Shown: positions 8,361 to 49,498 of the stretch, in pieces
Position numbering within the stretch: the stretch's first letter is position 1
Layout: each line of letters opens with the position of its first letter
Source of the DNA: a virus
Length of the DNA stretch: 50,774 nucleotides
Virus record (IMG/VR): IMGVR_UViG_3300025093_000029
Coordinates: 1-50,774 of that record
Direction: 5' to 3' (one strand)
Notes under the pieces: generated by a model
The model's database searches: none
Seen by the model: only the letters and a program-made list of their open reading frames with translations
Told to the model about the DNA's origin: nothing
Position numbers and translations under genes: made by a program

Positions 8361-9260
8361 ATGAAAGAAAAGATTAGAAAAATACTTAGAGAAAGACAAT
8401 TAGAATTAGATTTAAAATCTAAAGAGTATGGAACTGACTATGAAAGATGTTCTTATTTTAGTTACAACACCAAGTACCAAGAATTTTGTAAAGAACTAAG
8501 TGGTTTCAAAAGTTTTCTCCATAAGGATTTAGGTCTTAAAGATATAATAGACGAAAAAATAAAGTTGATGGGGGAAATAAAAAACCTAAATCAACAATAT
8601 CAAGAACCATTGAGTTTATTATATGGTAACCCTAATTTTAAAGAGATTCAAAAAGTGGGTGATGAATATTATCTGAAACATCTGGATAATAAGTCTGTTC
8701 TTTTTGATGGGGATGGAGAATGGCATTACGTCAATAAATTGAATACCAATTATTCCGATTTAGCGGAACTTCTAACAGAACTTTTTATTAGAACTGGTGA
8801 AATCAAAAAGATACTTGATAAAAATAAACTTTATTTAAGAAAATATTTAAAGTCTAGAAAAGAAGATTTAAAGAGATTATTAGATGAACACTTTTCATTG
8901 GATGAATATAAAGATTTTGTTAGAAACACAAAAGTATTATCCAAAGTGGGAGAGAAGGCAGAAGATGATGTAAGAGAAATATTAGAAAAGGCAGGTTTTA
9001 GAACACTCTATCAAGGAGGGCATGGAGATTTTATTGATATGGTCTTTGGTGTTGACTTAATAATGGAGTACAATGGTAAAATAGTTACAATACAAGTTAA
9101 AAATAATGATAACATAATCCTAGACGATTCAAATGATTATTCTTACAGAAGACTTGATTATATGGCAGCACCCACTAATTTTGGTATGGTCATTAAAAAC
9201 AGAGAGGGTGAAATAACAAAGTTAAATCAGGAAGGTGAAGTAATTAATGACTCCGAATAA
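8361..9260 (+). CDS. PD-(D/E)XK nuclease-like protein with capsid-targeting-like N-terminus
   Basis: 299 residues. The N-terminus MKEKIRKILRE matches the amphipathic cassette found on about 20 proteins in this window. The middle is a charged coiled-coil region (about 120-190). The C-terminal 100 residues look like a restriction-endonuclease fold: Glu198 (VGEKAEDDV), Asp232 (GVDLI) and Q-x-K at 245-247 (TIQVKNN), spaced as in PD-(D/E)XK enzymes where Q can replace E. If the cassette is a packaging signal, this nuclease would enter the host with the phage DNA. The final residues overlap the next gene by 14 nt. DNA cleavage itself is inferred. Confidence 0.7.
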   Translation: MKEKIRKILRERQLELDLKSKEYGTDYERCSYFSYNTKYQEFCKELSGFKSFLHKDLGLKDIIDEKIKLMGEIKNLNQQYQEPLSLLYGNPNFKEIQKVGDEYYLKHLDNKSVLFDGDGEWHYVNKLNTNYSDLAELLTELFIRTGEIKKILDKNKLYLRKYLKSRKEDLKRLLDEHFSLDEYKDFVRNTKVLSKVGEKAEDDVREILEKAGFRTLYQGGHGDFIDMVFGVDLIMEYNGKIVTIQVKNNDNIILDDSNDYSYRRLDYMAAPTNFGMVIKNREGEITKLNQEGEVINDSE

Positions 9261-16271: not shown

Positions 16272-16292
16272 TATTTATATAATAAAAGTTAC

Positions 16293-16364: not shown

Positions 16365-16384
16365 TATATTTATAATAAAAGTTG

Positions 16385-16458: not shown

Positions 16459-16502
16459 CTTTTTTTTTAATTATTAGTGTTGATAGTATATTTATAGCTG
16501 TG

Positions 16503-23228: not shown

Positions 23229-24665
23229 ATGAATCTAAAAACAATCATTAAGTCAGAACTATTATTTGAATCTTTAGAAGATAGGTTAAAATCTGCCTAT
23301 CGAAAATGGTGTAAAAAGATGAAATTAAAAGACCAAGAAATCCTTGATGACATTGAGAATGCTGATGGTTTTCCAGAAGAACTTGAACAATACAATGGTG
23401 ATTTTTTGGACTATAATAGTGAGGCATATCAAGAAGCTACAGAGTTATACGATAAAGGAGATTATGAAGGTATACATAATTTGATAGCTGATGACTTATG
23501 TAGGGATGTGTGGATTGACAGAGAATTTAAAGATTGGGCTTCATATAGAAACTTAACCAAAAGCTCAGACATATTCCAATATAAAAGTGAGGGAGAACTT
23601 AGAAAAGAATTAAGGGACGCAAAAGAAAAATCATTTACCAAAAAGTTAAAGAAAGCCTCAGCGGGTGAAGATTTTGATAAAATTTGGGAGAATGATGATA
23701 TGTTGATTGTTGTCCCTAAGTCCCACGTTGGAGCTTGTAAATTTGGTCAAGGTACTAAATGGTGTACCGCTAGTAAAACTAACAATTACTTTGATTCTTA
23801 TTATAAAAAAGGTATCTTATATAGGGTACTACAAAAAAATGATAACTATAAAGAATTATTATCTAACCTTGATAAATTGGATAAACGTGACATTGAAAAC
23901 CTAAGTAAAGTCTCCATAAATCTAAGAAGAAAAGAAAACTCTATGTCGATGGTGGACAAGGTAGATTATGCTTATGGGGATAAAGTAACTTCAGAGTTTT
24001 TAAACTCCTTACCTAGTGAAGCTTATAAAGCCATTAAAAATTACCAAAGTTTAAACGAACAAAATCTAAAAAAAATTATAAGAGAAGAGGTAGAGGATTT
24101 TGATTGGTTATCAGATTATGAATTTGATGTTGATAAAGTTAAAGTTGGGGATAAATTCAAAACAGTTAATGGTGATTTTTGGTTTGAAGTAGATAAAATT
24201 AAATGGAATGAAACTAGTCCTGAACTTAGTATGGTTTATATAAAAAATCCTAATGAAAGATGGGAGAATGAATTTTATATTAAAGATATAATAAAGGGTC
24301 TGAATAGGGGTCAAATTTATGGCTCAAACGGTTTAAAAAAAATTGAAAATAAAGAAATAAAAGAATCTGATGACCTAGATTGGGTTAGAGACACAACAAC
24401 AATAGAAGTTGGGAAATGTTTTATCGTTTACAACTATGATGGAAGTATAGATGCAATAGTTACCATAAAAGAAATGGAACAAAGAGAATGGAAAGATAAC
24501 ATTTATCAAAAGGGGGGCAAATTTGACCCTGATAATATAACTATTCATTTAGTAGGAGTTACCCAAAAAGATAAAGGAAGAGTAGGGTCCAACTTTAGAA
24601 TAATTTATAATGACTTGGTAAAATATATAAATGATGGTGTCTTGGCACCCACCAATTGTGAATAA
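23229..24665 (+). CDS. Cassette protein with CKFGxGTKWC domain and internal cassette copies
   Basis: 478 residues. N-terminus MNLKTIIKSELLFES ends in L-F-E-S. Near residue 170 is GACKFGQGTKWCTASKTNNY with FDSYYKKGILY, the motif shared with 19938 and 38962. Near residue 272 a second cassette appears in mid-protein: QNLKKIIREEVEDFDWLSD, followed by a small beta-rich unit (KVGDKFKTVNGDFWFEVDKI); near residue 375 comes ESDDLDWVRD and another such unit (EVGKCFIVYNYD). The protein thus looks like three units joined head to tail, each starting with an I/L-x-E/DW motif. Protease processing into parts is inferred. It is the first gene after the tmRNA terminator. Confidence 0.65.
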   Translation: MNLKTIIKSELLFESLEDRLKSAYRKWCKKMKLKDQEILDDIENADGFPEELEQYNGDFLDYNSEAYQEATELYDKGDYEGIHNLIADDLCRDVWIDREFKDWASYRNLTKSSDIFQYKSEGELRKELRDAKEKSFTKKLKKASAGEDFDKIWENDDMLIVVPKSHVGACKFGQGTKWCTASKTNNYFDSYYKKGILYRVLQKNDNYKELLSNLDKLDKRDIENLSKVSINLRRKENSMSMVDKVDYAYGDKVTSEFLNSLPSEAYKAIKNYQSLNEQNLKKIIREEVEDFDWLSDYEFDVDKVKVGDKFKTVNGDFWFEVDKIKWNETSPELSMVYIKNPNERWENEFYIKDIIKGLNRGQIYGSNGLKKIENKEIKESDDLDWVRDTTTIEVGKCFIVYNYDGSIDAIVTIKEMEQREWKDNIYQKGGKFDPDNITIHLVGVTQKDKGRVGSNFRIIYNDLVKYINDGVLAPTNCE

Positions 24666-24666: not shown

Positions 24667-25341
24667 ATGAATATAAGAAGAATCATAAGGGAAGAAATGA
24701 ACGACTTTGATTGGGTCATGGATACACAATCCAACCACGATATCGCACAAAATATTGTTGATAAAACTAATATGTGGATGGCAGATGATGATTTAAGAGT
24801 AAACTTACCTTTTATGACGTATGGTGAAGGTTATTCAGCTAAACAATTATTTAAAACTTTTTCATTACTTAGAGATAAGAACCCCACTATTATGTTTCTT
24901 GAATACCTACTTTATAAATATGGGATTGAGAGAACTGACCACATGGCAAATTATAATATCAACCCAAATGCTCAGGACATATGGTTTAGGTATAAAAATT
25001 TAATCACAAAAAAAGTTTTAGACAACCTTAAAGATAAACCAATAAATGAATCTAATGATTTTGATTGGTTTAATGATAGGCCACAACCATCAGAAGGTGT
25101 TGTAAAACTAGTGATACACCTACCCAATATGATTTTAGAGTATGATGTGGATTTTAAAAATGTAGAACAGTTTTTATCTTTAGTACAAGATTACGCTGTT
25201 GAAGCGGTTGAGGGTTATATGATGCCAATCGATAGAATAGGTTTGAATGGTTGGGTGGCCTTAAATAGATACCCCTCAGAGACCCAAGAACTAAAAGACG
25301 GTTTAAATAAATTAAAAAAGAAGGTAAACTCTTATTTATGA
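24667..25341 (+). CDS. Two-unit cassette protein (DFDW motifs)
   Basis: 224 residues from ATG 24667, which directly follows the previous stop. An upstream in-frame ATG at 24634 lies inside that gene. N-terminus MNIRRIIREEMNDFDWVMD shows the cassette plus D-F-D-W. A second motif, INESNDFDWFNDRP, occurs near residue 135, after an N-E-S site, and is followed by a short beta domain (VVKLVIHLPNMILEYDVD). No enzyme family recognised. Its stop overlaps the next start (ATGA). Confidence 0.6.
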   Translation: MNIRRIIREEMNDFDWVMDTQSNHDIAQNIVDKTNMWMADDDLRVNLPFMTYGEGYSAKQLFKTFSLLRDKNPTIMFLEYLLYKYGIERTDHMANYNINPNAQDIWFRYKNLITKKVLDNLKDKPINESNDFDWFNDRPQPSEGVVKLVIHLPNMILEYDVDFKNVEQFLSLVQDYAVEAVEGYMMPIDRIGLNGWVALNRYPSETQELKDGLNKLKKKVNSYL

Positions 25342-25868
25342 ATCTAAAAAAAATTATAAGGGAGGAATTAATTAAAGAATCTGGGGTAGAAAATTATCTA
25401 CAATCAATAGCTAGTATAACTTCAGGTAATCAAAAAAAGTATTACCAATGGATTCTAGATAATCTAGAACAAGTTCCTGTTGTTAGTTATCGTTCTAATG
25501 AAGAACTAAAAGATAAAATAGATTCTTTTGTTGAAAAAATGAGACGCCGTGGTAGTTTTTGTGAAAAGAAAGGTTGTTTTGATACTGCCTATAATACAGC
25601 GATGTATGTCCCTGGAGTTCATTATATAGAAGGTTATGTTCAATCCATGATACCTATTGTTCACGCATGGAATTATCTACCAGAAGAAAATATATATTTT
25701 GATTTGATTAATGATATTGCGTGGGAAGAAGAAGACTCTCACTTCAATCAATACTACAAAGTAATTGACTTAGACATGGCCGGTGTTGTAAAGTGGTCTT
25801 CTAAAACTGGTTATGGTGGTGGATTTTTAGAAAGTCCTAAATTTGTGGGACACATTTTAAAACAATAA
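25338..25868 (+). CDS. Cassette protein with papain/transglutaminase-like Cys-His-Asp pattern
   Basis: 176 residues. N-terminus MNLKKIIREELIKES carries the cassette. The core reads CEKKGCFDTAYNTAMY, YIEGYVQSMIPIVHAWNYL and NIYFDLIND: Cys80 at a helix start, His109 in HAW and Asp122 on the next strand. This order and spacing are seen in transglutaminase-like and papain-like cysteine hydrolases. Candidate activities are peptidase, amidase or deamidase. If packaged, it would act on host proteins on entry. The fold match is by pattern only. It overlaps the preceding gene by 4 nt. Confidence 0.5.
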   Translation: MNLKKIIREELIKESGVENYLQSIASITSGNQKKYYQWILDNLEQVPVVSYRSNEELKDKIDSFVEKMRRRGSFCEKKGCFDTAYNTAMYVPGVHYIEGYVQSMIPIVHAWNYLPEENIYFDLINDIAWEEEDSHFNQYYKVIDLDMAGVVKWSSKTGYGGGFLESPKFVGHILKQ

Positions 25869-25884: not shown

Positions 25885-26913
25885 GTGAAAATACTAAAAA
25901 ACATAATAAAAGAGGAGATATCTAAAAATCTAAAAGAGGATAGTGACCTTCAATGGATAAAAGATAGTGACTTTCAATGGATAAAAGATATTGAACCTGA
26001 TACGGATTTAACACCTGGACAAATTAAAATTAGATACAAAACATTTCCTCTTAAATTTGTGGGACCTTCCATGGTAAATTTTAATGACATTGAGTGGGTA
26101 AATGGGAGACTAATGTTACACCTTGAGGGTTGGTTGGATTTTGCCGATTTATTTGTCGACAACGACAGCTCTCAATACGGATATGTAAACAAAATCTTGG
26201 CAAGGGCGATTTTGGATCCAGATGATTATTTTGACCACTACCATGGAGATTTTCCTTGGGATGAGGTTTGGGATACTGTGACTGATGATGAAGAACTGTT
26301 AAAATATATTAAAGAATATATTAAGGAAAAGGGTTTTATTGGTCAGGAATTAGAGAACGATGAAGACCCAGACCAAGGTGGTTTGAGAGAAGATATGTTA
26401 TTAGATGATGATCTTTTAGGTGAATTAATTGAAGAAGAATCGATGTTTTATGATTTAAAAAATGAATTAAGGTGGGCTTACTCAAGTGCTTACAGTATAG
26501 CAGAACAAGATAATATATGGAAATCCGTTAAAGGGGCAATAACAGATCTTTTTGGTGAAGGAGAATGGGTAGAAGTTGAAAAAAAGAGAAATACCCAAAT
26601 GTTAGTCTTTGATGTTACTGATAGACTTATGGAATCTGTAGAGGAGGAATTGGAACGATGTCTTGAAGCTTGTGAGAGATATTTTGACCCAGATAACCAT
26701 GTTTCGGATGAACATAGAAGTGTGGAGGAAGCTTTTGAAGAATATTGTGGGGATTGTGTAGAATACCCTTTCAATGAATGGGGTTCGTTTATTGAGTTTT
26801 TTCAAAATTATTTAGAAGAAGAAGGTGATAAATTAAACCCAAGTTTCGATCAATACCCAAGTAGAGACGAAGTAATGCCATATTTTAGGGAAGATATTTA
26901 TGGTAGGTTTTAA
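25885..26913 (+). CDS. Acidic cassette protein with tandem QWIKD repeat
   Basis: 342 residues; the start is GTG 25885, giving MKILKNIIKEEISKNLKE, a long version of the cassette. It is followed by a tandem duplication, SDLQWIKD then SDFQWIKD, variants of the D-F-D-W motif. The rest is very acidic (Asp/Glu rich) and helical, with no recognised domain. TATTTATA lies 11 nt before the start. The gene ends at a 16-bp palindrome shared with the convergent minus-strand gene. Confidence 0.6.
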   Translation: MKILKNIIKEEISKNLKEDSDLQWIKDSDFQWIKDIEPDTDLTPGQIKIRYKTFPLKFVGPSMVNFNDIEWVNGRLMLHLEGWLDFADLFVDNDSSQYGYVNKILARAILDPDDYFDHYHGDFPWDEVWDTVTDDEELLKYIKEYIKEKGFIGQELENDEDPDQGGLREDMLLDDDLLGELIEEESMFYDLKNELRWAYSSAYSIAEQDNIWKSVKGAITDLFGEGEWVEVEKKRNTQMLVFDVTDRLMESVEEELERCLEACERYFDPDNHVSDEHRSVEEAFEEYCGDCVEYPFNEWGSFIEFFQNYLEEEGDKLNPSFDQYPSRDEVMPYFREDIYGRF

Positions 26914-30554: not shown

Positions 30555-30609
30555 AATTTTTAGATAAAAAAAATATTTATTTATAATTAATTTATATTTA
30601 TAGTTGGGT

Positions 30610-32287: not shown

Positions 32288-32313
32288 TAATATTTATATA
32301 AAAAGATATAAGT

Positions 32314-32880
32314 ATGAAAAAGAAAGTCATAAAACTTAATGAGTCCGATTTAGAATCAATAGTTAAAAAAATATTAAAAGAAGAAGGTGAAGAAAGAAGT
32401 TCACGTTATATGTTTTTTTCTAATCTAGAACAGATACATAGACAAGCGGCTATGTTGTTAGAAATGGATGAAAATATGTTAGAACAAATTCTAAACAATG
32501 GTCATGATTGGGCACAAGACCACGTAGCTGAGGCAAAAAATAACATGGACCAAGTTTTTGATTTTATTATGAATAAGATTAAAGAACCAGAAGATGTCCA
32601 CGTTGATGTGGTGGAGGAAAAATGGTCTAAAAAATATAAAAAATCAATCGATTGTAATAACCCCAAAGGTTTCTCTCAAAAGGCACACTGTAAAGGTAAA
32701 CTAAAAGAAGGATTAGTTAATGAGGAAGGTAAAAATTGTGCCGATACTGAAAAGGGTTGTATTAGAAAAAGAAAATCTGGTTGGGTTATTTTAAATAATA
32801 AAAAAGGGGGTGTTTGGCGTAAATGTGACTCCAAAAAACACTGTGAAGAAATATTAGATGCGTTTCACGCTAGTAAGTAA
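32314..32880 (+). CDS. Cassette protein with cysteine-rich basic C-terminal modules
   Basis: 188 residues. The N-terminus is the long cassette form KKVIKLNESDLESIVKKILKEEG, ending in L-K-E-E. The middle is helical and acidic (HRQAAMLLEMDENMLEQI). The C-terminus has two short Lys/Cys modules seen in many marine phage proteins: KYKKSIDCNNPKGFSQKAHC, then GCIRKRKSGWVIL...WRKCDSKKHCEEI. They are probably basic binding elements. TATTTATA lies 23 nt before the ATG; this is the first gene of the main cassette operon, which runs to 42936. Confidence 0.65.
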   Translation: MKKKVIKLNESDLESIVKKILKEEGEERSSRYMFFSNLEQIHRQAAMLLEMDENMLEQILNNGHDWAQDHVAEAKNNMDQVFDFIMNKIKEPEDVHVDVVEEKWSKKYKKSIDCNNPKGFSQKAHCKGKLKEGLVNEEGKNCADTEKGCIRKRKSGWVILNNKKGGVWRKCDSKKHCEEILDAFHASK

Positions 32881-32882
32881 TT

Positions 32883-33941
32883 ATGAAAATTAAAGAGATT
32901 ATATTAGAACAACTAATTCTTGAAGCTAAAAAGAAGAAGAAATCTAAAAAGAAGAAAGAAACTAAAAAAGATGCTTGTTACCACAAAGTTAAGTCTAGAT
33001 ATGATGTTTGGCCTTCAGCTTACGCTTCGGGAGCTTTGGTTAAGTGTAGAAAAGTTGGGGCAGCTAATTGGGGTAACTCAAAGAAAGAATCAGAAGAAAT
33101 AGAAAAACACAACTTAATCACTGAAAAAAAGAAAGGTAAAAGAAAGTTAACTAAGAAAGCCAGTTCAGAAACTAACTTAGGTGATTGGTTCAAAAGAAAG
33201 GGAGCGAAAGGTTCTTCTGGTGGTTGGATTGATTGTAACGCTCCTGATGGTAAAGGTGGTTATAAACCATGTGGTAGACAAAAAGGTGAAAAAAGAGCAT
33301 ACCCAGCTTGTAGACCTACAAAGGAAGCTTGTAAAGATAAAGGTAAAGGTAAGTCTTGGGGTAAGAAAGCTAAAAAAGAATCCATATCAGAAGGTTTACA
33401 ATATCATATAAACCATAATATACCTTTAATTGAGAATATCTACAGATGGGGTTCAGAAGAATTCTTTAAAATCATCAACGAAACAAGAGAGTTATATAAT
33501 AAAGGTGAAATAGATTTATGTTTAGTAGATAAAGAACTTATCGAAACCAACATTGGTGAAAAAGTGATGTTCGAGGGTAAAGAAGTATGGTTAGATATTC
33601 CAATGGAAAATACTGAGATACTATCTGAAGACGATAAATTTAAAGGTAAGAAGTCTGGTTCACCAACTAGAGATACTTCTGGTGGGAAAGCTTATAAAGT
33701 TTATGTTGCTGGTTGTACAAAGAAAACTGACTCAAACCCAAGGGGTATTAAATTAGTTAGATTCGGTTCTGGTGGTTTAAAAGCTAAGTTAAGTAATAAA
33801 GAAGCTAAAAAGTCTTACAACGCTAGACACGGTTGTTCTGAAGGTAGACATAATGATAAATGTAAAGCTGGTTATTGGTCTTGTAGACTACCACGCTACG
33901 CTAAAAAATTAGGATTATCGGGTGGTGGTACTTGGTGGTAA
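32883..33941 (+). CDS. Basic Lys/Cys-rich cassette protein with ARHxC/YWSC C-terminal domain
   Basis: 352 residues. N-terminus MKIKEIILEQLILEAKKKKK ends in I/L-L-E-A, the best T4-type cut site here. It is followed by small domains common in marine phages and giant viruses: DACYHKVKSRYDVWPSAYAS, then LVKCRKVGAANWG; NLGDWFKRKGAKGSSGGWID with CGRQKGEKR and ACRPTKEAC; and the C-terminal KLVRFGSGGLKAKLSN...NARHGC...AGYWSCRLPRYAK. The strong basic charge suits DNA binding inside a capsid. The end overlaps the next frame by 20 nt. Domain functions unknown. Confidence 0.65.
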   Translation: MKIKEIILEQLILEAKKKKKSKKKKETKKDACYHKVKSRYDVWPSAYASGALVKCRKVGAANWGNSKKESEEIEKHNLITEKKKGKRKLTKKASSETNLGDWFKRKGAKGSSGGWIDCNAPDGKGGYKPCGRQKGEKRAYPACRPTKEACKDKGKGKSWGKKAKKESISEGLQYHINHNIPLIENIYRWGSEEFFKIINETRELYNKGEIDLCLVDKELIETNIGEKVMFEGKEVWLDIPMENTEILSEDDKFKGKKSGSPTRDTSGGKAYKVYVAGCTKKTDSNPRGIKLVRFGSGGLKAKLSNKEAKKSYNARHGCSEGRHNDKCKAGYWSCRLPRYAKKLGLSGGGTWW

Positions 33942-35502
33942 AATAGAATGTCCTATATGTGATTGGGATTGGAAGGTCGAATCTGATGACGATAGACCCC
34001 ATCTATGCCATCAATGTGGTTATGATTCTAAACTAGGTGACTTTGATGAAGAAGCCCTCAATCAATGGAAAAAAGAAAATGGTTTGTTGGAAGAGGTACC
34101 ACAACCAGGTGAATCATCTGGAACACCAGCCAAATTTAAATCCGATTCTAAACCTATAGAAAAATTTTTGTCGGTAAAACAACTATTACAACAAGTAAAA
34201 GATATTCCTTATTATAAAGAAGTTCTAGAAGATTTAAAAAATGATGACGATTCTTGGGTGGTAACTAAAAAAGTAAAAGAATATGCTAAACACATGATGG
34301 AAAACCCTTCATCGTTAAATGATTTACCCCCTATTATTGTGATAGATGGAAAACTTCAAGATGGAGCTCATAGAATCTCAGCCATTTATTTATTATCTAA
34401 TTTATTAGACCCTAAAAGTGGGTGGGATAAAAAGAAATTAAAAACACATTTTCACAAAAAAGAGGATGTTGTACCATTCCAAGAACAAAAAGAAGAAAAA
34501 TATATAGTCAGAACTTTTTCTGAATCAATTGATGACATGGAATTAGTTTGGCACCGAGATAGAGAAGATAGAATAGTTAAAAGTTTGGGTAACACGGATT
34601 GGATGATTCAAATGGATAATGAATTACCAAGACCTTTAACAGAAATGATTTACATCCCTAAAAACACATACCATAGAGTTATTAAAGGTACTGGTGATTT
34701 AAAGGTGAGAATAAATAAACTATTCACAGAGGAAGAAAAAAAATATAGTACTATATTGATATTTGGACCTCAAGCTGTGGGTAAATCTACAATCACAAAA
34801 AAATTGGGTGAAAAACTTGGGATGAAAGTTATTGGGTCTGATGAGGTAATAGACCAAGGTGATTGGTCATCTGAAAAAATATGGAGCAAGGGTTGGAAGA
34901 TTAGAAAACAAAATGAATATAAAGGCATGATGAAATATTTAAAAAATAATTTGGGTAAACCAGTAATTTTAGATGTTGGTGGCAGTCATGGTGTGTGGGA
35001 TGGTGATATGTTAAATGAAATATTAAGTTTAGTAAAAAACTATGAAAATAGGTTTTTAATTATCCCCTCAAGTAAAGAAGGTGAAAACATAGAATTTTTA
35101 AGAGGTAGATTATTAAAAAGAGAACTGGATGCGATACCATCTAATATTAGATATTGGGAGGCAGTACTTAAAGGTGACGAATCTTTTGGTAAAGATTTTA
35201 ATTCTTATGATAAGAATGAGTTTACTAAAAGACTAGAAATCGCTAAAAAAGATAAGACAAGGGCAACTGAAATGCTTAAATACAACAAAAATAGGTATAA
35301 AGCTTTAAAGAGTGGTGTTGAGTGGATGGAATATGATGATACATCAGATAAAGAATTTGATTGGGATATAAATAAATTGGAAGATTATTCAAAATTTTTT
35401 ATTGATAATATGAAAAATTCTGGAATTGGTAATCATATTATACACAATAAAGGAAAGTCCGGAGAAGAATTAAGTAATGAAATAATAGAAAAATTAAAAT
35501 AA
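33922..35502 (+). CDS. Zinc-ribbon, ParB-like, cupin-like and P-loop kinase fusion protein
   Basis: 526 residues, start GTG 33922 within the end of the preceding gene. Four parts: a zinc ribbon (Cys10, Cys13, Cys29, Cys32); a ParB/sulfiredoxin-like segment DLPPIIVIDGKLQDGAHRIS (135-154); a cupin-like domain with WHRDREDRIVKSL (210-222) and IPKNTYHRVIKG; and a P-loop kinase with Walker A GPQAVGKST (282-290) and a later ILDVGGSHGVWDG. The C-terminus repeats KEFDWDINK, a D-F-D-W-like motif. The overlap could allow translation as an extension of the previous protein by frameshift. The combination is unusual; no substrate is evident. Confidence 0.65.
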   Translation: MVVLGGKIECPICDWDWKVESDDDRPHLCHQCGYDSKLGDFDEEALNQWKKENGLLEEVPQPGESSGTPAKFKSDSKPIEKFLSVKQLLQQVKDIPYYKEVLEDLKNDDDSWVVTKKVKEYAKHMMENPSSLNDLPPIIVIDGKLQDGAHRISAIYLLSNLLDPKSGWDKKKLKTHFHKKEDVVPFQEQKEEKYIVRTFSESIDDMELVWHRDREDRIVKSLGNTDWMIQMDNELPRPLTEMIYIPKNTYHRVIKGTGDLKVRINKLFTEEEKKYSTILIFGPQAVGKSTITKKLGEKLGMKVIGSDEVIDQGDWSSEKIWSKGWKIRKQNEYKGMMKYLKNNLGKPVILDVGGSHGVWDGDMLNEILSLVKNYENRFLIIPSSKEGENIEFLRGRLLKRELDAIPSNIRYWEAVLKGDESFGKDFNSYDKNEFTKRLEIAKKDKTRATEMLKYNKNRYKALKSGVEWMEYDDTSDKEFDWDINKLEDYSKFFIDNMKNSGIGNHIIHNKGKSGEELSNEIIEKLK

Positions 35503-35507
35503 TTACT

Positions 35508-35882
35508 ATGATAAACGTAAGTAGACAAAAAAGATTGATTATTGAAAGGGCTAACAAAAGAATGTTAGGTGAAGCTGAAATGAGTTGTCCTGAAGCAACA
35601 AAAGACAGTGAATTAAATTCAAAGAATAAAAAGAAGATTGCAGAAAACAATCAGTATGGATTACCAACAGAAGAGGCAAAAGAAAAAGGACAAAGTTGTG
35701 CTAACTGTGTTGCCTTTGACATCTCAAAAAGAATGAAAGATTGTATGGACAATCAAACTGGTGAGGTGGGTTACTGTTGGATGCATCACTTTATGTGTTC
35801 TGGTAAGAAATGGTGTGACACTTGGGTAGAAGGTGAACCTATAACTTCTGATGAGAAGTCTTATAAAAAACAAGAAGGGTAA
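35508..35882 (+). CDS. Cysteine-rich cassette protein (HiPIP-like cysteine pattern)
   Basis: 124 residues. N-terminus RLIIERANKRMLGEAEMSC contains an L-G-E-A site, a good T4-type cut. Beyond it the cysteines are arranged as SCANCVAFD, then KDCMDN, GYCWMHHFMC and KKWCDTW, a pattern resembling high-potential iron-sulfur or zinc-binding phage proteins. Such proteins occur in many marine phages. It overlaps the SNase gene by one base (TAATG) and so is co-translated. Metal identity is not shown. Confidence 0.6.
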   Translation: MINVSRQKRLIIERANKRMLGEAEMSCPEATKDSELNSKNKKKIAENNQYGLPTEEAKEKGQSCANCVAFDISKRMKDCMDNQTGEVGYCWMHHFMCSGKKWCDTWVEGEPITSDEKSYKKQEG

Positions 35883-36235
35883 TGTATACTTATAACGCAA
35901 AATTAGATAGAGTTATTGATGGTGATACTGTTGATGCTTTAGTTGATTTAGGGTTTGATACATGGAAGAAAGTAAGAATACGCTTTTATGGTATCGATGC
36001 TTACGAAAGTAGAACCAAAGACTTAGAAGAAAAAGAAAAAGGTCTTGCTGCTAAACAAAGGGTTATTGATATTTTAAAAGAAAATGATAACAAATTTATA
36101 TTGAAGTCTCACGGTGTTGGTAAATATGGTAGGTGTTTGGGTGAGATGTTTGTCAAGACTTTAGGTGAAACATCCTTACAAAAAACATTGGTTGTTGAGG
36201 GTCACGCTGTAGAATATGATGGAGGTAAAAGATGA
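35882..36235 (+). CDS. Staphylococcal-nuclease (SNase/thermonuclease) family protein
   Basis: 117 residues. Catalytic motif IRFYGIDAYES gives Arg34, Asp39 and Glu42 at SNase spacing (Arg35, Asp40, Glu43), with GKYGRCLGE supplying the second Arg84 (Arg87 in SNase). The first strand DRVIDGDTV holds another metal ligand, Asp14. All key residues are intact, so a calcium-dependent nuclease is expected. It has no signal peptide and no cassette, so it would act in the infected cell. It stands inside the cassette operon and overlaps the next gene by 4 nt. Confidence 0.88.
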   Translation: MYTYNAKLDRVIDGDTVDALVDLGFDTWKKVRIRFYGIDAYESRTKDLEEKEKGLAAKQRVIDILKENDNKFILKSHGVGKYGRCLGEMFVKTLGETSLQKTLVVEGHAVEYDGGKR

Positions 36236-36468
36236 GAAATTTAATTAAAAAAATATTGAAGGAAAGTGACTTTGATTGGGCAGGGGGTAATGTACCAGAT
36301 GTTTATAGGGTTAAACATATGAGTAGTGATACTGTTGAGGGTTATTTCACTGAAGAATCTTTTAAAAGGTGGCTTGACCGTATGAATGAGGATAGATATG
36401 GTTATGATAAGGAAATGTATGAACATGAAAGAGAATTTGATTTTGAACTTGTAACAATTAATTGGTGA
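36232..36468 (+). CDS. Short cassette protein, 78 residues
   Basis: Textbook example: MRNLIKKILKE, then SDFDWAGGNV, i.e. an amphipathic helix, L-K-E-S cleavage-like site and D-F-D-W motif. The remaining 60 residues are acidic with aromatic residues (EGYFTEESFKRWLDRMNEDR). Its first 30 bases are nearly identical to those of the genes at 36468 and 41660. It overlaps SNase by 4 nt and the next gene by 1 nt. No other domain. Confidence 0.65.
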   Translation: MRNLIKKILKESDFDWAGGNVPDVYRVKHMSSDTVEGYFTEESFKRWLDRMNEDRYGYDKEMYEHEREFDFELVTINW

Positions 36469-36881
36469 TGAGAAATTTAATTAAAAAAATATTGAAGGAG
36501 GGTGTTGGTGGTAATTATTATTATTTAATAACCACTAAAGACGGTAAGTATTACTTAAATGATGGTGATGGTTTTGATACTCTTGATGAACTGTTCCCTT
36601 TAGATGGGACACTTGATTATGAAGAATTAGATAGGTTACACAACCCAAGTAGTGGAGCTAATAGACTTTTTACATCAAGTGAAAGAGCTGGAAGTGTGTT
36701 AAAAAATCTACCAAAAGCCTATGATGATATTTTGAATAGTCCAGGTTGGTCACAAGACGAGTATTTTCTTCGCCAAAGAAAAGCCCTCATCAATCAAATG
36801 GAAGAATTAGGTTACACTTGGGGTGATTTAGAAGTTAGAGAATATTATTTAGGATTAATACCCACAAATACGAATATATGA
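36468..36881 (+). CDS. Cassette protein, 137 residues
   Basis: ATG 36468 shares one base with the preceding stop (TGATG); upstream TTG 36462 and GTG 36465 are also in frame. MRNLIKKILKE is identical to the preceding protein, followed here by GVGGNYYYLI. The rest is mixed alpha/beta (SGANRLFTSSERAGSVLKNL; YTWGDLEVREYYLG) without a known family. The exact N-terminal match between two adjacent proteins with unrelated bodies suggests that the cassette moves as a unit. Confidence 0.6.
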   Translation: MRNLIKKILKEGVGGNYYYLITTKDGKYYLNDGDGFDTLDELFPLDGTLDYEELDRLHNPSSGANRLFTSSERAGSVLKNLPKAYDDILNSPGWSQDEYFLRQRKALINQMEELGYTWGDLEVREYYLGLIPTNTNI

Positions 36882-37210
36882 AAAACTTGATTAGAAATAT
36901 ATTATTAGAGGAGATAGGTAAAGTTGAGTACCAAATAAGAGACATCGGTGGTCCTGTTTATTATAAACGACACAAAGGTGAGAAATGGTCTTTTATTGAA
37001 GAAGCAGATTTTTATAAAAACTCTAATAAAAATAATCTAGTTAAGTGGGAAGAAAAAAAACCTAAAAAGGGTCCTAAAGTAAAACAAATTGATGTTCCAC
37101 AGAAAGATATCGATACTTTAGAATATTTAAAGATATACTACCAAAACTTATCACCTAATGATTATTCAGTGAGTGTGAAAGAGGGTCAAATTATTATTGA
37201 GATAAAATGA
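36878..37210 (+). CDS. Cassette protein, 110 residues
   Basis: N-terminus MKNLIRNILLEEIGK keeps the amphipathic pattern and ends in L-L-E-E. The body is basic in the middle (KWEEKKPKKGPKVKQIDVPQ) and finishes in a short beta segment (YSVSVKEGQIIIEIK). No known family. Overlaps by 4 nt on both sides (ATGA), so it is part of a coupled series. Confidence 0.6.
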   Translation: MKNLIRNILLEEIGKVEYQIRDIGGPVYYKRHKGEKWSFIEEADFYKNSNKNNLVKWEEKKPKKGPKVKQIDVPQKDIDTLEYLKIYYQNLSPNDYSVSVKEGQIIIEIK

Positions 37211-38883
37211 AAAGTTTAATTAAAAAAATATTAAAAGAGGTGAACACAAAGTCAGAGGTTTACAACATCTTCGAAGAAGAAGAGTTCGACCCATTTGGAC
37301 ATATCACAGACCAAAGTGAAGAGGATTTAGAACTCTCAGAGATGGGTATAGATATGGAAGAAGATTGTGTGTTAGGTTTCTCTAAAAACAATGCTAAATT
37401 AGATTGGCCTTATTTTTCATTACCAGCAGGTTATACTTGTCCATTCGCAACTGTTTGTAAAAACTTTCCAGCTAAATGGGAAGGACCCATCAAAGGTGGT
37501 GAATTTAAAAAACCTTCTTCTTGGGAAAAGAATGTTAAAGCTGGACCCAAAGCTGAAATGATGTGTTACGCAGCTAGAGCTCAAGGACAATATTCAGGGG
37601 CCAATGTACAAGCTTTCAAAAACCTAGATTTAATAAAGAAAATGAAAACCAAGGAAAAGATTGCTGATTTAATAGTTAAATCAATGAAGTACCATGGTTT
37701 AGGTGATATCGATGTTTTAAGAATACATGAAGCTGGTGACTTTTTTAGTCAAGAGTATTTTGACGCTTGGGTAGAAGTTGCTAAGAGAATGCCAAAGACA
37801 CTATTTTACGCGTATACAGTCTCACTACCATATTATATGGCTAGAAAAAATAGTTTACCTAAGAATTTTAAAGTAATTGCTTCAATGGATAAAAATAACG
37901 AAGATTTTATTTTAGATAATAATTTAAGATATTCTAGGGTTGTTAATTCAGTTGAGGAAGCCAAAGAGTTAGGTCTACCAATAGACGTTGATGATTCATT
38001 AGCGTGGGGTTCTGATGATAACTTTGCTTTAATAATACATGGACAACAACCTAAAGGTTCTGAAGCCGCTCAAGCTTTAAAGAAAAACATAGAATCTGGT
38101 TTGTATGATAAGATGAAAAAAATTAAGAAAATGAATATACCTAAAAAGAGTTCTTTAAGAGATAGAATAAAAAAAGAATTAAGAAACGAAGACTTGACTT
38201 ATTGGGGTGTAAAGGATGACAAAATGGGTCCTTTAAAAGAAGATGATTTTTCGTGGACTGATGATAGTAACCTTGATGGTGTTATTTTTAAAAGTAAATA
38301 TAGTCCAGACTTAACCTATATCATTAAAGATGATAATTACTCTACTGTTAGGGTTTATATAAAAGATGGTGAGCATGTTAATAATATTGTAAGGGATTAT
38401 GTTAACCGAAAATTTAAATCTGGAGATTGGTACGTAATAGATGACAAACCTATCAACGAAGAGGAATCAGAATTTGGTTCAGAAAATGATGAGGTAACTT
38501 CATTAAAAGGACATAGAGATTATGATGATTGGGTGTTTGTTCATAGAAATTTAAATAGACCACCCTATTTCTCCATTAAAGCTGGGAAGAGTGGTGGACC
38601 AGTTATTGGTTACGACACAGACCTTCATTTAAAAGATGTGTTATTTAAAGTACAAAAAGGTGGTCAAAGTCGTGTTAGAAAAGAAAAAAGAAAAAATGTT
38701 CACGCTGGGGTTGTTGGTAAAATAGTTAGTTCAGGTGGTCATTACAACACTGATGATTGGGTGTTGATAACTTATAATCCATATAAACATGACTCTTTTG
38801 TTGAATATGAGACAGAAGAACCTATATTTAAAGCGAGTGAAGTTATTTTAAAGAACGAAAGGGAGGTGTGGGCTAAAAAATGA
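37207..38883 (+). CDS. Cassette protein with GP88-like domain and extra C-terminal units
   Basis: 558 residues. MKSLIKKILKEV is followed by an acidic region, then a GP88-type domain (about 50-290): SLPAGYTCPFATVCKNFP, MMCYAARAQGQYSGANVQAF, DVLRIHEAGDFFSQEYFDAW and FYAYTVSLPYYMA, with conserved cysteines. Near residue 315 a second cassette-like helix appears (LRDRIKKELRNED), then KEDDFSWTDDS and two more small beta domains, the last with SGGHYNTDDWVLITYNP. The layout suggests fused units. GP88 proteins are phage-specific; function unknown to me. It overlaps the micro-gene at 38880. Confidence 0.7.
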   Translation: MKSLIKKILKEVNTKSEVYNIFEEEEFDPFGHITDQSEEDLELSEMGIDMEEDCVLGFSKNNAKLDWPYFSLPAGYTCPFATVCKNFPAKWEGPIKGGEFKKPSSWEKNVKAGPKAEMMCYAARAQGQYSGANVQAFKNLDLIKKMKTKEKIADLIVKSMKYHGLGDIDVLRIHEAGDFFSQEYFDAWVEVAKRMPKTLFYAYTVSLPYYMARKNSLPKNFKVIASMDKNNEDFILDNNLRYSRVVNSVEEAKELGLPIDVDDSLAWGSDDNFALIIHGQQPKGSEAAQALKKNIESGLYDKMKKIKKMNIPKKSSLRDRIKKELRNEDLTYWGVKDDKMGPLKEDDFSWTDDSNLDGVIFKSKYSPDLTYIIKDDNYSTVRVYIKDGEHVNNIVRDYVNRKFKSGDWYVIDDKPINEEESEFGSENDEVTSLKGHRDYDDWVFVHRNLNRPPYFSIKAGKSGGPVIGYDTDLHLKDVLFKVQKGGQSRVRKEKRKNVHAGVVGKIVSSGGHYNTDDWVLITYNPYKHDSFVEYETEEPIFKASEVILKNEREVWAKK

Positions 38884-38972
38884 CAGAAATAGTATTATTA
38901 CTATTTTGTTTTATTTTTTTAAGTGTATGTTCATCTCTTGATAATGAAATAAATGAAAATGATGAAGTTTAG
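38880..38972 (+). CDS. Possible lipoprotein-like micro-protein, 30 residues
   Basis: ATG 38880 overlaps the preceding stop (ATGA), as in other genes of this operon, and the frame ends at TAG 38970-38972, 11 nt past the next start. It reads as a hydrophobic segment (IVLLLFCFIFLSVC) with a lipobox-like L-S-V-C, then an acidic tail. It could be a tiny membrane peptide. The coupling is the best evidence; length is too short for more. Confidence 0.4.
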   Translation: MTEIVLLLFCFIFLSVCSSLDNEINENDEV

Positions 38973-40431
38973 TCTATCAAATATAATCAAGTCTACAATA
39001 CTACTTGAGGGTAGGTTGGAGAATGTGATTAAAAAGTATGCGGATGAGGCCAGCGAGAGTGATTTGGAGGTAATAGAATACCTATCTAAAGAAGACCCAT
39101 CTGGAAACAACAAATATCTTGATTGGATGACAAAAGTTTATTTAGGCCTCACCAACGAAATGGAGTTAGATGAGGAAATATTAAATACGGTTAAAAAGTT
39201 TCATCAGAACATAAGTAGAATACCAAACAAAGATATAAATAGTTACGCCACTATTGCAGATTTAAAAATAGCTGTTGATGAGGCTATGAGAAAAGTCTAT
39301 ACTAAAAAAGCTAAGAAAAATGTCATGAAGATTTTCGAAGATGACGATATTTTAGTCTTAGCTCCTTTAAGTATTGAGGCTTCTTGTAAGTATGGTTCTG
39401 GTACTAAGTGGTGTATTGCCTCAACAAATGACCAAATGGTGGGTAACCCACACTTTGCTGATTACATCGAACACTCCAATTTTTATTTTTTAATAAATAA
39501 AAATATGACACCAAAAGATAACCCCAGAGATTATAAATACGCTTTACAATTTAAACGTAATAAAGATGTGGGTGCTTTGACTTGGTGGGACGCACAAGAT
39601 GATCCACATGAAGTAAAACCATCATGGGTTACTAATGAAGTATTAAAAACTATCATATCAAAGAATCCAGAAGTTAGTAAAAAACTACTACAATCAAAAA
39701 TTAAAGAGTTTCTAGAAGAACCAAGTATTACCAAGTATCGTGAATTTAGAGAATTTTTAACTGACGAACAAAAAAAACGAGTTATAGATGAGTTAATAAA
39801 AAAAGGACTTAACACAAGTTTTTTTGATGTTCTTGAAAATGATTTATCTCATCATCAAATGAAGTTGTTGCTGAATAGTTTTACTGGCTTATCACCCATT
39901 AAGATTAGAGACTTCCATAAGTTCAAAAAATATCTAAATGAAAAACAACTTTTATCACTTCTAGAAAATAACGTAACTTCTTTACTTGAGGATTCGTCTG
40001 TACTTAATTGGATAGATGAAAATTATCCTACAGAGTTTAAAAATAATTTAATGAATAAAGTGGGTGATAAAATTAAAAAATTATCTACAGACCTTACTAG
40101 TAAACTGTTGTTTAAAAAGTGGCAAATGTCAGACGAAGAATTAAAAGCGGTTGAGGAAACCTCCTATTATGTCTTTTTATCTTCTGGTGATTGGGATAGT
40201 GGTGAAAGAGAAAACTTTATCGACTCTTTAGTCAAGGTAGACAAGTTAGACCCAAACTCACATAGGACATTAAATATGATGAAAATGAGAAAACAATTCC
40301 AACCAGCAACTAAAATGTATGGTATTCAAACAACAGCTGGTTTGTTGGATGATTATGTGGGTATGTCTGATGACCAAATAGATGAACCAATATTAAAATC
40401 AATAAAAGAAAAAGCGATTGAGCTAAGGTAA
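38962..40431 (+). CDS. Cassette protein with CKYGxGTKWC domain (paralogue of 19938-21371)
   Basis: 489 residues from ATG 38962 (in-frame ATGs at 38953 and 38959 also exist; the paralogue supports MKFSLSN). N-terminus MKFSLSNIIKSTILLEGR ends in L-L-E-G. The core EASCKYGSGTKWCIASTND, then HFADYIEHSNFYFLINKNM, KYALQFKR and TWWDAQDDPHE matches the minus-strand paralogue; the C-terminal helical chain and final RTLNMMKMRKQFQP...YGIQTTAGLLDD also match. Both share the DPSGNNKYL stretch. The conserved Cys pair and WWDAQD suggest a catalytic or binding pocket. No known family. Confidence 0.65.
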   Translation: MKFSLSNIIKSTILLEGRLENVIKKYADEASESDLEVIEYLSKEDPSGNNKYLDWMTKVYLGLTNEMELDEEILNTVKKFHQNISRIPNKDINSYATIADLKIAVDEAMRKVYTKKAKKNVMKIFEDDDILVLAPLSIEASCKYGSGTKWCIASTNDQMVGNPHFADYIEHSNFYFLINKNMTPKDNPRDYKYALQFKRNKDVGALTWWDAQDDPHEVKPSWVTNEVLKTIISKNPEVSKKLLQSKIKEFLEEPSITKYREFREFLTDEQKKRVIDELIKKGLNTSFFDVLENDLSHHQMKLLLNSFTGLSPIKIRDFHKFKKYLNEKQLLSLLENNVTSLLEDSSVLNWIDENYPTEFKNNLMNKVGDKIKKLSTDLTSKLLFKKWQMSDEELKAVEETSYYVFLSSGDWDSGERENFIDSLVKVDKLDPNSHRTLNMMKMRKQFQPATKMYGIQTTAGLLDDYVGMSDDQIDEPILKSIKEKAIELR

Positions 40432-41195
40432 TGAAAGATTTGATTAAGAAAATATTAAAAGAAGATTTTAATCCTGAAGACTTTGATTGGATTAAAGAGA
40501 TAGACCCAACAGATTCATTTAAGGAGTGGATAGAATCAACCAGTTTAGTACGAAAAGATGGTGTTGGTGCTAAAACTGAAAGACAATGGTTAGACTACAT
40601 AGAAAGAACTAGAACTGGGGTTGAAGATTTGACGGATGAAACACATACATTATTAGAATATGTAGAAAATTTAAATAGTTCAGCTGGTTTAGAACACACA
40701 GAAGATATGCTTGATGTCATAAAGGATTACATGGGTACCCAAGATGGGGATGTATACGGTTATTATGTAGATATTTGTAGAGATAGCCAACGTTCATTAC
40801 GAACCTTTTTAAAATACTTTGGGGTATACGGTAAAAAGTATAATCTAACACTAAAAGAGTTACTAGACGTATCACACCAATATTTCGAAAAAAAGGTAGA
40901 CGATGATATAAAAAAATCAGAGTCAATAAGAGAATATAATGACCGTGAAAAAAGAAGTACCACAGAAATTACAATGGCTTTATTAAATGAGGCAGCAGAC
41001 CATTTCGCTGAAGGTTTAAGATTGATTGAATCAGCAACTCAATTCGCTTATGATTCAAACAATGAAGATTTGATTAGAGATTTAGAAAAACTAAGAATGT
41101 CTATTCAAAGTGGGGGTGATAAAATGTGGGCCGAAAATCCAAACAGTATGAATATTGTTAATAAGATTAATGACATCATTCGAAAATACAGTTAA
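40431..41195 (+). CDS. Cassette protein with DFDW motif, 254 residues
   Basis: MKDLIKKILKEDFNPEDFDW then IKEIDP: cassette, L-K-E-D site and motif. The rest is helical and charged, with a long coiled-coil-like stretch (EITMALLNEAADHFAEGLRL). No domain recognised. Start shares its A with the preceding stop (TAATG). Confidence 0.6.
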   Translation: MKDLIKKILKEDFNPEDFDWIKEIDPTDSFKEWIESTSLVRKDGVGAKTERQWLDYIERTRTGVEDLTDETHTLLEYVENLNSSAGLEHTEDMLDVIKDYMGTQDGDVYGYYVDICRDSQRSLRTFLKYFGVYGKKYNLTLKELLDVSHQYFEKKVDDDIKKSESIREYNDREKRSTTEITMALLNEAADHFAEGLRLIESATQFAYDSNNEDLIRDLEKLRMSIQSGGDKMWAENPNSMNIVNKINDIIRKYS

Positions 41196-41663
41196 ATGAG
41201 AGATAGGATTAGAAAAATATTAAAAGAAGCTACGGGACCTATAAATGGAACCTCTATACCAGATAAATGGGTTGATGGTAACACAAAGGCTTTTTTTGAA
41301 TCAGATGGTATTAAGTATCGTGTGATATTTCCATGGAACCATGAGAGGAATGGTACAATACGTACACAAATAATTCCTTATAATAATGAAGATTCGGCTG
41401 TTTGGGAAAAATTTAAGGATTTAGGTCCTTACGGTCAAGATGCTTACTATGATACCGGCCAAATCTATGAATGGAAAAATGAAATAGGTTCAAAATTATA
41501 TAATATCTTAAATTCATTTATTGGTAGTAATCATAACTGGAGTGTTATAAAAAGACAAGAGGAGGATGGTATGTTAATTTACGCATCACTAAATGTTTTT
41601 GAATTAGTGGAAGATTATTTTCACATGGCTGATGATGGGAACCCTTTTGATAAAATAAAATGA
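41196..41663 (+). CDS. Cassette protein, 155 residues
   Basis: MRDRIRKILKEATGPINGTS: the cassette ends in L-K-E-A, a near-ideal T4-type site. The body is mixed alpha/beta (YRVIFPWNHERNGTIRTQII; WSVIKRQEEDGMLIYASLN) with no known family. It starts directly after the preceding stop codon and overlaps the following gene by 4 nt. Confidence 0.6.
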   Translation: MRDRIRKILKEATGPINGTSIPDKWVDGNTKAFFESDGIKYRVIFPWNHERNGTIRTQIIPYNNEDSAVWEKFKDLGPYGQDAYYDTGQIYEWKNEIGSKLYNILNSFIGSNHNWSVIKRQEEDGMLIYASLNVFELVEDYFHMADDGNPFDKIK

Positions 41664-42226
41664 GAAATTTAATTAAAAAAATATTGAGGGAGTCTGATTT
41701 TGATTGGGTAGAGAGTGTAAGAACGAACCCATTTTACAATGACTTTGTTGTAGTAAACTTTGATGTTAAATTAACTACTTCCGATGTTGATAGGTTACTT
41801 GGTTTAGTAAATAGTGCTGGTATTAGTCTTGATGATTATCCACATGCAGCAAAGAAACTTATTAAATATAGTCCAGGTGGTTACGTTAGAGTTTACAATA
41901 ATACGATTACAGGAATAAAAGAGTTTGGTTATGGTAGTTCACCAGCCATATTTAATCGTATGTCTACAGGTTTTGATTATGAACAATATAAATTTAGTGA
42001 ATTATTTGGTGATGGGGGTAATAAGAGTATTAACGAGTCTTACTTCAATTCTAACAAACTTTACAATAAAAGTTATATAGACAGTGTCACAAAAAACGCT
42101 GACAGAAATATAAAAAGAATCGTTAAAAACTTAGAGATAATTAATTGTATAGATAAAAATAATAATCCCACACAATGTGTGAAAATTCCAGAAGTGTTAT
42201 TTATTTACATAAGTGGTAGATATTAA
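41660..42226 (+). CDS. Cassette protein with DFDW motif, 188 residues
   Basis: MRNLIKKILRE, then SDFDWVESV. Its first 30 bases nearly match those at 36232 and 36468, 5 kb away. The body contains a beta-rich region (NDFVVVNFDVKLTTSDVDRL) and a basic helical end. A second I-N-E-S occurs near residue 125 (NKSINESYFNSN), a possible internal cut. No known family. Confidence 0.6.
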   Translation: MRNLIKKILRESDFDWVESVRTNPFYNDFVVVNFDVKLTTSDVDRLLGLVNSAGISLDDYPHAAKKLIKYSPGGYVRVYNNTITGIKEFGYGSSPAIFNRMSTGFDYEQYKFSELFGDGGNKSINESYFNSNKLYNKSYIDSVTKNADRNIKRIVKNLEIINCIDKNNNPTQCVKIPEVLFIYISGRY

Positions 42227-42231
42227 AAATT

Positions 42232-42936
42232 ATGAAAGATTCAATTAAAAAACAAATCATATTAGAAGGTAGGTATGACTCTTTGGTTAGAACAATAACT
42301 AAAGACATCTTCAACGAGATTAAAAAATCTGAAGGTGGTGTTGGTGTCACTCATTTAGAACTTCCTTGGGATATAAAGGAAATTCCGGCGTATAATCATG
42401 AATCTGGTCTTGTTATAGAAGTGGCTTTAGTAATCAATAGAACTCATGATACCATACTTTACGGTAATAGAGAATTACCTTATTACATAAATACTTACAT
42501 GTCTGATGATGAGTCTATTGTAATAGAAGTAACTTTAGATGAAACATATGGTAAAGGTTTTTACGAAGAGATATTTTACAAAATCAATGAAGATATCAGA
42601 CATGAAATAGAACACTTCTTACAGGATATGAGTGTCGGTGATAGGGAAGAAAGAGATAGAGATGATACCTCAGCTTATGAATCTACATTTGAACACCATA
42701 AAGACAAGGGTGAGATACCAGCTCTAGTACATGGTTTTTATAGAAGAGCAAAACTAGAAAAGAAACCCATAGATGTTGTTATGATAGACGACATAAAAAA
42801 GAATATCCAAGATGGTCTGTTAACTCCATCTGAAGGTGATACACTATTACAATTGTGGATTAATTATTCTATCAAAAATCTACCAAAGGCTCAATATAGA
42901 AACGAGGTTAAGAGACGTTTTATTTTCGAAAAGTAA
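42232..42936 (+). CDS. Cassette protein with HExxH metallopeptidase motif
   Basis: 234 residues. N-terminus MKDSIKKQIILEGRYDS ends in I-L-E-G. A metallopeptidase-type motif RHEIEHFLQD gives His124, Glu125 and His128 (gluzincin/metzincin-type zinc site), preceded by a strand with SIVIEVTLDE and followed by an acidic region. The third zinc ligand is not certain. A similar HExxH occurs in the cassette protein at 48314. Peptidase activity is a hypothesis; injected phage proteases acting on host factors would fit. It is the last gene of the coupled operon. Confidence 0.55.
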   Translation: MKDSIKKQIILEGRYDSLVRTITKDIFNEIKKSEGGVGVTHLELPWDIKEIPAYNHESGLVIEVALVINRTHDTILYGNRELPYYINTYMSDDESIVIEVTLDETYGKGFYEEIFYKINEDIRHEIEHFLQDMSVGDREERDRDDTSAYESTFEHHKDKGEIPALVHGFYRRAKLEKKPIDVVMIDDIKKNIQDGLLTPSEGDTLLQLWINYSIKNLPKAQYRNEVKRRFIFEK

Positions 42937-48313: not shown

Positions 48314-49498
48314 ATGGGGGTAAGTTCTATAATAAAATCTTTTTTAATAAACGAGGTTGGTGGTATCTCTTTTGAGGTAAGAAAATGGTCTGAAATAATA
48401 GAAAAATATGTTTCAGATATATTAAAAAAAGAAAGAGAAAAAAACACGCCAACTTACGATAATTCTCCTTATAATTCTTGGGGTGATGAAATATCTCATC
48501 TTGAGAATTATTTTGGTCAAAAAGTAGAAAAAGCTTATCTTTATGGATATGATTTGTCAACATACGCAGATTTTGACCAACCCATAGAAGATTATTTATT
48601 TTCAGTAGAAATAGATAATGGTGAAATTTATTTAGATGTAGTTGAAGGTGATGAATCTAAATTAGGAGAGGATGATTACAATAACATTTGGGATATCATT
48701 GATGAGTACAGATTTGGTGAAAGTGGTTTATTAGTGGATACTGATAATAATGATGTGAAAGTAGTCTATAAAGACGAAGAAACATACAACACAACCCCAA
48801 GATTTTCCTTACCAACGATTAATAAAATAGAAATAGAAGGAAAAGATTTTCCAGAAGCTTATGAAAATTTTAAGGTTGACAAGTGGATTATAAATAACTC
48901 AAGTAGAATAGAATATGACCATTGGAAATCTGGTTATAACGAAGAAGGTGAATATGTTGTTTATTTAAACATGCCAATTTATTCTGTTGGTGGTTCAGCA
49001 TTAGTACATGAAGTTAAACATTCTTTCGATGATTGGAATAGAATGAGTAAGGGAGCCCAACCAATTAGGTCTAGTTGGGAAGTTAAAAATATATATACTC
49101 CAGATTTTGAGAAGTTAGTTTTGGGTGGTAGTCACAGTTTTGGTAATGAATTATCTGATATTATAAAAAGTTATTATATGGGGTCTAAATTAGAGACACC
49201 AGCTTACTTAGAGAATGAGTACGACTATCCTAAAGTTAAAACTTATAGAAAAGTTGCTAAAAAAATGATGAATTTTAAAGCTTCTGATTATCTAGGTAAG
49301 GATGGTAACTTTAGTAAATACTTACAAAAGAGTTGGTCTGATTTAATAGATAAATACGATATACCGTTTTTTAGAAAATTTAAAAATGTTGGGGACTTTT
49401 TAAAATATACAGAAAAACATTTTAATAAAAGAGGTAGAGATATTTTAAGACGTATTGATAAGATGCTCTACTTACATGGTAAATTAGATAAAAAATAA
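48314..49498 (+). CDS. Cassette-like protein with HExxH metallopeptidase motif
   Basis: 394 residues. N-terminus MGVSSIIKSFLINEVGG is a variant of the cassette (I-N-E-V). The middle is acidic and aromatic. The metal motif is GGSALVHEVKHSFDDW, giving His232, Glu233 and His236, in a helix typical of zinc peptidases (compare 42232). The C-terminus is basic and helical (FNKRGRDILRRIDKMLYL). If packaged, it would be a second HExxH protein among the injected set. A third zinc ligand is not identified. TATTTATA lies 12 nt before the ATG. Confidence 0.55.
   Translation: MGVSSIIKSFLINEVGGISFEVRKWSEIIEKYVSDILKKEREKNTPTYDNSPYNSWGDEISHLENYFGQKVEKAYLYGYDLSTYADFDQPIEDYLFSVEIDNGEIYLDVVEGDESKLGEDDYNNIWDIIDEYRFGESGLLVDTDNNDVKVVYKDEETYNTTPRFSLPTINKIEIEGKDFPEAYENFKVDKWIINNSSRIEYDHWKSGYNEEGEYVVYLNMPIYSVGGSALVHEVKHSFDDWNRMSKGAQPIRSSWEVKNIYTPDFEKLVLGGSHSFGNELSDIIKSYYMGSKLETPAYLENEYDYPKVKTYRKVAKKMMNFKASDYLGKDGNFSKYLQKSWSDLIDKYDIPFFRKFKNVGDFLKYTEKHFNKRGRDILRRIDKMLYLHGKLDKK

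Follow-up and report, generated by a model that had tools for sequence, protein, structure and literature searches.

The 50.8-kb virus record that we analysed as a whole (the window) encodes 19 products that begin with a 9-23 residue amphipathic-helix leader ending in I/L-x-E. These leaders (cassettes) are probably capsid-targeting sequences of a T4-type head assembly, used by about 50 genes and serving, among other cargo, polyprotein-like chains that would be cut in the prohead. In one genome this predicted cargo takes up 15% of the coding capacity. Most of the proteins lack known domains, and Pfam and PHROGs gave names to few cargo domains.

N-terminal cassettes in the window and its relatives

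The window is colinear with ~308-355 kb of IMGVR_UViG_3300030102_006934, a 380-kb close relative (G001). At the DNA level, its cassette operon had no match among isolated phages. In the nearest isolate by capsid protein, Mel-JY01, enrichment was weak and no FDW strings were seen. An earlier note on this DNA had claimed that about 20 proteins share a cassette ending in I/L-x-E, which agrees well with the 19 found when every ORF in the window was read. The operon genes without one are 33922 (P-loop kinase-like) and 35882 (SNase). The features are listed below, with a slash at each predicted cut.

8361..9260, + strand: MKEKIRKILRE/RQ; PD-(D/E)xK-like C-terminal half, by eye; the orthologue G001 312283 keeps the cassette
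9958..12069, + strand: multi-module protein in which no N-terminal helix is clear; I/L/V-x-E marks boundaries after residues 31, 160 and 330
19938..21371, - strand: MEFNLNQILESTILLE/GRKEDVIKKY; GRxEDVxKKY family, [IL]xE kept family-wide while the helix varies
23229..24665, + strand: MNLKTIIKSELLFE/S; internal KIIRE/EVEDFDW (predicted cut after nt 24086) and KEIKE/SDDLDW (after nt 24365)
24667..25341, + strand: MNIRRIIRE/EMNDFDW; internal site KPINE/SNDFDW (after nt 25050); fused to the 25885 body in G001_331738
25338..25868, + strand: MNLKKIIREELIKE/SG; orthologue G001 330179, 92% identical
25885..26913, + strand: MKILKNIIKEEISKNLKE/DSDLQW, GTG start; the body recurs as a module inside G001_331738 and G004_215639
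32289..32297, + strand: late-promoter-like NATATTTAT, 16 nt upstream of the operon; further copies precede 9958, 23229, 25885, 48314 and 19938 (- strand)
32314..42936, + strand: cassette operon of 14 genes; an N-terminal cassette in 12 of them
32314..32382, + strand: cassette MKKKVIKLNESDLESIVKKILKE of gene 32314-32880; leader shared with the head-cluster gene G001 152592
32883..32924, + strand: cassette MKIKEIILEQLILE of gene 32883-33941; cross-genome matrix and orthologue comparison
35508..35573, + strand: weaker cassette ...KRMLGE/AEMS of gene 35508-35882; from ORF reading
36232..36264, + strand: cassette MRNLIKKILKE/SDFDW of gene 36232-36468; cross-genome matrix
36468..36500, + strand: cassette MRNLIKKILKE/G of gene 36468-36881; cross-genome matrix
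36878..36910, + strand: cassette MKNLIRNILLE/E of gene 36878-37210; cross-genome matrix
37207..38883, + strand: MKSLIKKILKE/V; GP88 domain, internal GPLKE/DDFSW (after nt 38241), L5 gp82-like domain
38953..40431, + strand: MKMMKFSLSNIIKSTILLE/GRLENVIKKY; related to a PA5oct virion protein
40431..40463, + strand: cassette MKDLIKKILKE/DFNPEDFDW of gene 40431-41195; homologous to an internal module of G004_84997
41196..41228, + strand: cassette MRDRIRKILKE/A of gene 41196-41663; cross-genome matrix
41660..41692, + strand: cassette MRNLIKKILRE/SDFDW of gene 41660-42226; cross-genome matrix
42232..42936, + strand: MKDSIKKQIILE/GRYDSL; HEIEH motif; matches the C-terminal module of chain G007_40204 (PLLKE/GRYDR)
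48314..49498, + strand: MGVSSIIKSFLINE/VGGIS; HExxH family, whose members also occur within chains behind SITE/ or TITE/

With gene starts taken from a simple caller, [ILM]xE ends at residues 8-18 in 28 of 65 window proteins, compared with 12.9±3.1 after shuffling the N-termini and 10.3 from the interior rate. The relatives behave alike against their shuffles: 124 vs 70.9±7.6 in G001, 99 vs 61.5±7.0 in G007, 76 vs 41.2±5.4 in G004 and 47 vs 25.0±4.0 in G005. Among the control phages, the same shuffle test revealed no enrichment in crAss001 (z=-1.3) or in T4 1-50 kb (z=1.0). When trained exclusively on other genomes, a position matrix called 13 of 73 window genes (1.2 expected), 49 genes in G001, 47 in G007, 22 in G004, 21 in G005, 15 in G008 and 18 in G009; the expectations, 1.2-4.6, were derived from interior sites and may take too little account of compositional bias at N-termini. 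Four softer members (19938, 38953, 42232 and 48314) are supported by family conservation of [IL]xE just before the body. The weakest cassettes are those of 8361, with Arg at P1', and 35508, which has no orthologue in G001.

Two families illustrate this conservation. Full-length homologues in the GRxEDVxKKY family carry [IL]xE just before the body behind many different helices; the motif is absent from the shorter paralogues of the head cluster and from G005_33010. In the HExxH family, [IL]xE precedes the body at 15 of 15 loci, including three internal ones, and the 48314 model shows low confidence for the leader to residue 16, with order directly after. Model confidence was moderate overall and comparison with the PDB gave no confident fold match, so we describe the HExxH proteins as metallopeptidase-like solely on the basis of sequence.

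In PA5oct, the homologue of 38953 has the N-terminus MKLFEVFTLYE/D and carries an annotation as structural protein based on ESI-MS/MS. Across PA5oct virion proteins motif N-termini were not enriched (11 of 75 detected vs 19 of 92 undetected), in a comparison that covered 1-200 kb of a distant phage and mixed in tail proteins and enzymes. With this one homologue and a negative bulk comparison, packaging stays a prediction.

Head genes and a late-promoter-like motif

No gp21-type protease gene was found in the window, a fragment without head genes. The protease (Peptidase_S77) and Gp23 are both present in 6 of 6 relatives with their head genes covered, including the closest one. In an alignment of the relatives' proteases with those of T4 and PA5oct, the catalytic triad (H85, S140 and D168 in T4) is invariant; an S77 match is present in T4, PA5oct and SCTP-2 and absent from crAss001. 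The gp23 propeptide boundary reads [LI]I[SNE]E in all six relatives, and its I-x-E aligns with the known cleavage position of T4 gp23. The capsid-targeting reading in the earlier note, which proposed looking for a prohead protease and for sites in head proteins, thus finds both in the relatives, while the window itself offers no protease.

The location of some cassette genes lends this reading further support. In G001, 152592, 152917 and 153796 (- strand) lie between the protease gene and a scaffold-like gene; two more, 158543 and 158962, come after the capsid gene. Cassette, head and tail genes also have NATATTTAT in common. This motif occurs close upstream of starts and is strand-biased (70 in G001 vs 16 for ATATTTAT). 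It precedes 19 of 19 orthologues of T4 late genes and 1 of 7 orthologues of early genes; among cassette genes the share is 71% in G001, 81% in G007 and 86% in G004 (Fisher 1.8e-4, 2.9e-7 and 1.5e-4, respectively). Since the motif was discovered in the same genomes, the association is suggestive of late expression of the cassette genes with the head genes and is not a transcript measurement. Before many start codons it lies at 4-8 or 13-18 nt, hinting at leaderless or very-short-leader late mRNAs.

Small genes like pieces of the gp23 capsid protein occur in the window at 9247-9504 (resembling gp23 residues ~531-590), 9473-9916 (~359-413) and 44654-45277 (N-terminal, ~21-148), with counterparts in the relatives.

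Internal I/L-x-E sites and module chains

The earlier note described the N-terminal cassettes correctly and missed that I/L-x-E also occurs at junctions inside multi-domain proteins, dividing their products. Stand-alone cassette proteins align with internal stretches of longer proteins in other genomes. Where an N-terminus corresponds to an internal position, 33 of 57 junctions carry [ILM]xE (11.4 expected), compared with 7 of 79 junctions in cassette-less pairs (12.8 expected). Many modules start with S-x-D-x-F-D-W. FDW-like motifs follow [ILMV]xE in 12 of 16 cases in the window (3.1 expected), 52 of 71 in G001 (13.2 expected), 23 of 40 in G007, 15 of 25 in G004 and 10 of 15 in G005; the distant G009 (2 of 14, 2.1 expected) and G008 (1 of 7) are at chance level. 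About nine modules are strung together in each of the proteins at G001 109811 (1254 aa) and 359567 (1467 aa), and several chains lack an N-terminal helix.

At the internal sites, information is concentrated at P3 (L/I), P1 (E) and P1' (S), and positions further upstream are nearly free. In the stricter count, embedded modules, which lose the helix, retained I/L-x-E in 43 of 46 homologous pairs, which together with orthologues are not independent, compared with 45% retention for other [ILMV]xE triples. In two of the three non-retaining pairs the called start lies at the site itself, and one of these two has an upstream start that gives a cassette. A looser first count of internal FDW sites gave a retention of 0.46 and no excess; its motif was loose and caught unrelated proteins, and the two counts should be read together. 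Contigs fetched solely by a DNA pattern for E-S-N/D-D-F-D-W contained strings in 27 of 32 cases, two of these contigs (L124 and L126) overlapping. Because E and S are prescribed by the pattern, only the hydrophobic P3 counts as independent in this result. In the model of G001_331738, the stretch 130-148 around the internal site E134/S135 has pLDDT <50; the models place the I/L-x-E sites in stretches of low confidence, probably flexible, next to ordered domains. FDW may belong to the domain fold instead of marking a processing site.

From these features we infer docking, packaging, cleavage, injection and effector roles for the cassette proteins. The cargo genes would be transcribed late in infection together with head and tail genes, and the amphipathic N-terminal helix would dock each precursor into the prohead core, where the gp21-type serine protease would cut after I/L-x-E. 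In some precursors, additional I/L-x-E sites, mostly with S-x-D-x-F-D-W after them, would split a string of modules. One helix would be enough for a whole chain, internal junctions keeping the cleavage motif alone. Cutting in the prohead would free many proteins of ~100 residues, which would remain with the DNA and enter the next host. Whether the chains are such polyprotein cargo, with up to about nine small proteins sharing one targeting helix, cut in trans by the capsid-maturation protease in the prohead and perhaps bearing S-x-D-x-F-D-W as a tag for retention or ejection, is in our judgement evenly balanced.

Alternative explanations and known systems

The cassettes could target the capsid while their cargo is mainly prohead core or scaffold, cut and then discarded or retained, and not injected effectors. 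Some cassette proteins adjoin the protease and capsid genes, like T4 gp67/gp68, and T4 core proteins are cut at several sites (PMC5694885). However, most cargo genes are far from the head cluster and variable between relatives, and the cargo has enzyme-like domains (HExxH motifs, PD-(D/E)xK-like, GP88), which makes this explanation unlikely. A helix that is an uncut docking or localisation signal, with the internal I/L-x-E-S a linker left by gene fusion at cassettes, is in our view distinctly unlikely. Cleavage at the cassettes is a prediction, and near-identical cassette DNA could favour fusions; yet the internal sites drop the helix and retain P3, P1 and P1', families that differ in their bodies and have no FDW also keep the motif, and the same site is kept in the capsid protein.

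The nearest known concept for the chains is that of the polyvalent proteins, multidomain proteins presumed to be delivered along with the DNA and afterwards split by embedded metallopeptidases (Iyer et al. 2017, PMC5512222). These proteins carry several distinct domains in one delivered polypeptide; our chains are strings of modules whose delivery is predicted, and HExxH modules terminate G001_116643 and G007_40204. No HExxH was seen by eye in the two longest chains, G001 109811 and 359567, so an embedded peptidase is not general here. The boundary motif is instead the gp21-type motif of the capsid protein, matching a separate capsid protease behind a capsid-targeting leader, and it also ends cassettes of proteins unrelated to the chains. 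Splitting by the chains' own metallopeptidase domains is therefore very unlikely. Chance or AT-rich N-terminal composition could produce single I-x-E sites, the motif being short and the N-termini rich in Lys, Ile and Leu; as an explanation of the cassettes it is scarcely credible, given the shuffles, the cross-genome training, the control phages and the retention across orthologues.

Capsid targeting of a T4 type, the reading that we favour, has close precedents. T4 IPI, IPII, IPIII and Alt have 10-19 residue propeptides whose last residues govern cutting, and T4 shares with the viruses studied here the short N-terminal propeptide ending in I/L-x-E, as found in the window cassettes, the S77 protease gp21 and a gp23 with a cleaved propeptide (PMC9026906). 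T4 differs in having four such proteins, compared with ~15-50 predicted in the relatives, and another helix sequence; here many internal sites belong to chains. The prohead protease of phiKZ and SPN3US (gp175/gp245) likewise acts in heads with many packed proteins, x-x-E cleavage and ejection proteins, whereas it belongs to the S80 family and recognises another motif, mostly after long propeptides; the parts of these sources available describe no module strings (PMC5694885, PMC10052503). We found no report in the open-access literature of polyprotein cargo cut by a prohead protease, and the marking of junctions inside multi-domain proteins by I/L-x-E appears to be new.

Proteins delivered first by a phage often serve anti-defence or takeover, and genomes normally do not reveal them. 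If our reading is right, the head cargo of uncultivated huge phages can be predicted from a sequence label, the leaders could be used as loading tags for phage heads, and loading cargo as a polyprotein that the capsid protease cuts would be a route not reported before.

The window virus appears to be a huge phage with a Bacteroidota host. Like huge freshwater Bacteroidetes phages, it has a bS21 (ribosomal protein S21) gene, at 30604-30798. A Bacteroidota-type secretion tail domain (Por-secretion) at 5633-5998 is a weak match, below the cut-off; together the two fit huge phages of Bacteroidota. The bS21 phages have predicted Bacteroidota hosts, a head cluster with a prohead protease and a bS21 gene, and the available part of that source does not describe capsid-targeted cargo (Chen et al. 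2022, PMC9723584). The Por-secretion domain belongs to a small secreted-looking protein that follows a subtilase gene (4060-5998), without homologue among the relatives compared. The window also encodes a DUF2828/DUF7788 protein (835-2274), a paralogue pair (2840-3625 and 7199-7960) of which the first is a Mom-family DNA-modification protein by Pfam, a SET-domain protein (7951-8343), a GH16 glycosyl hydrolase (17674-18381) and six tRNA genes within 13823-16459.
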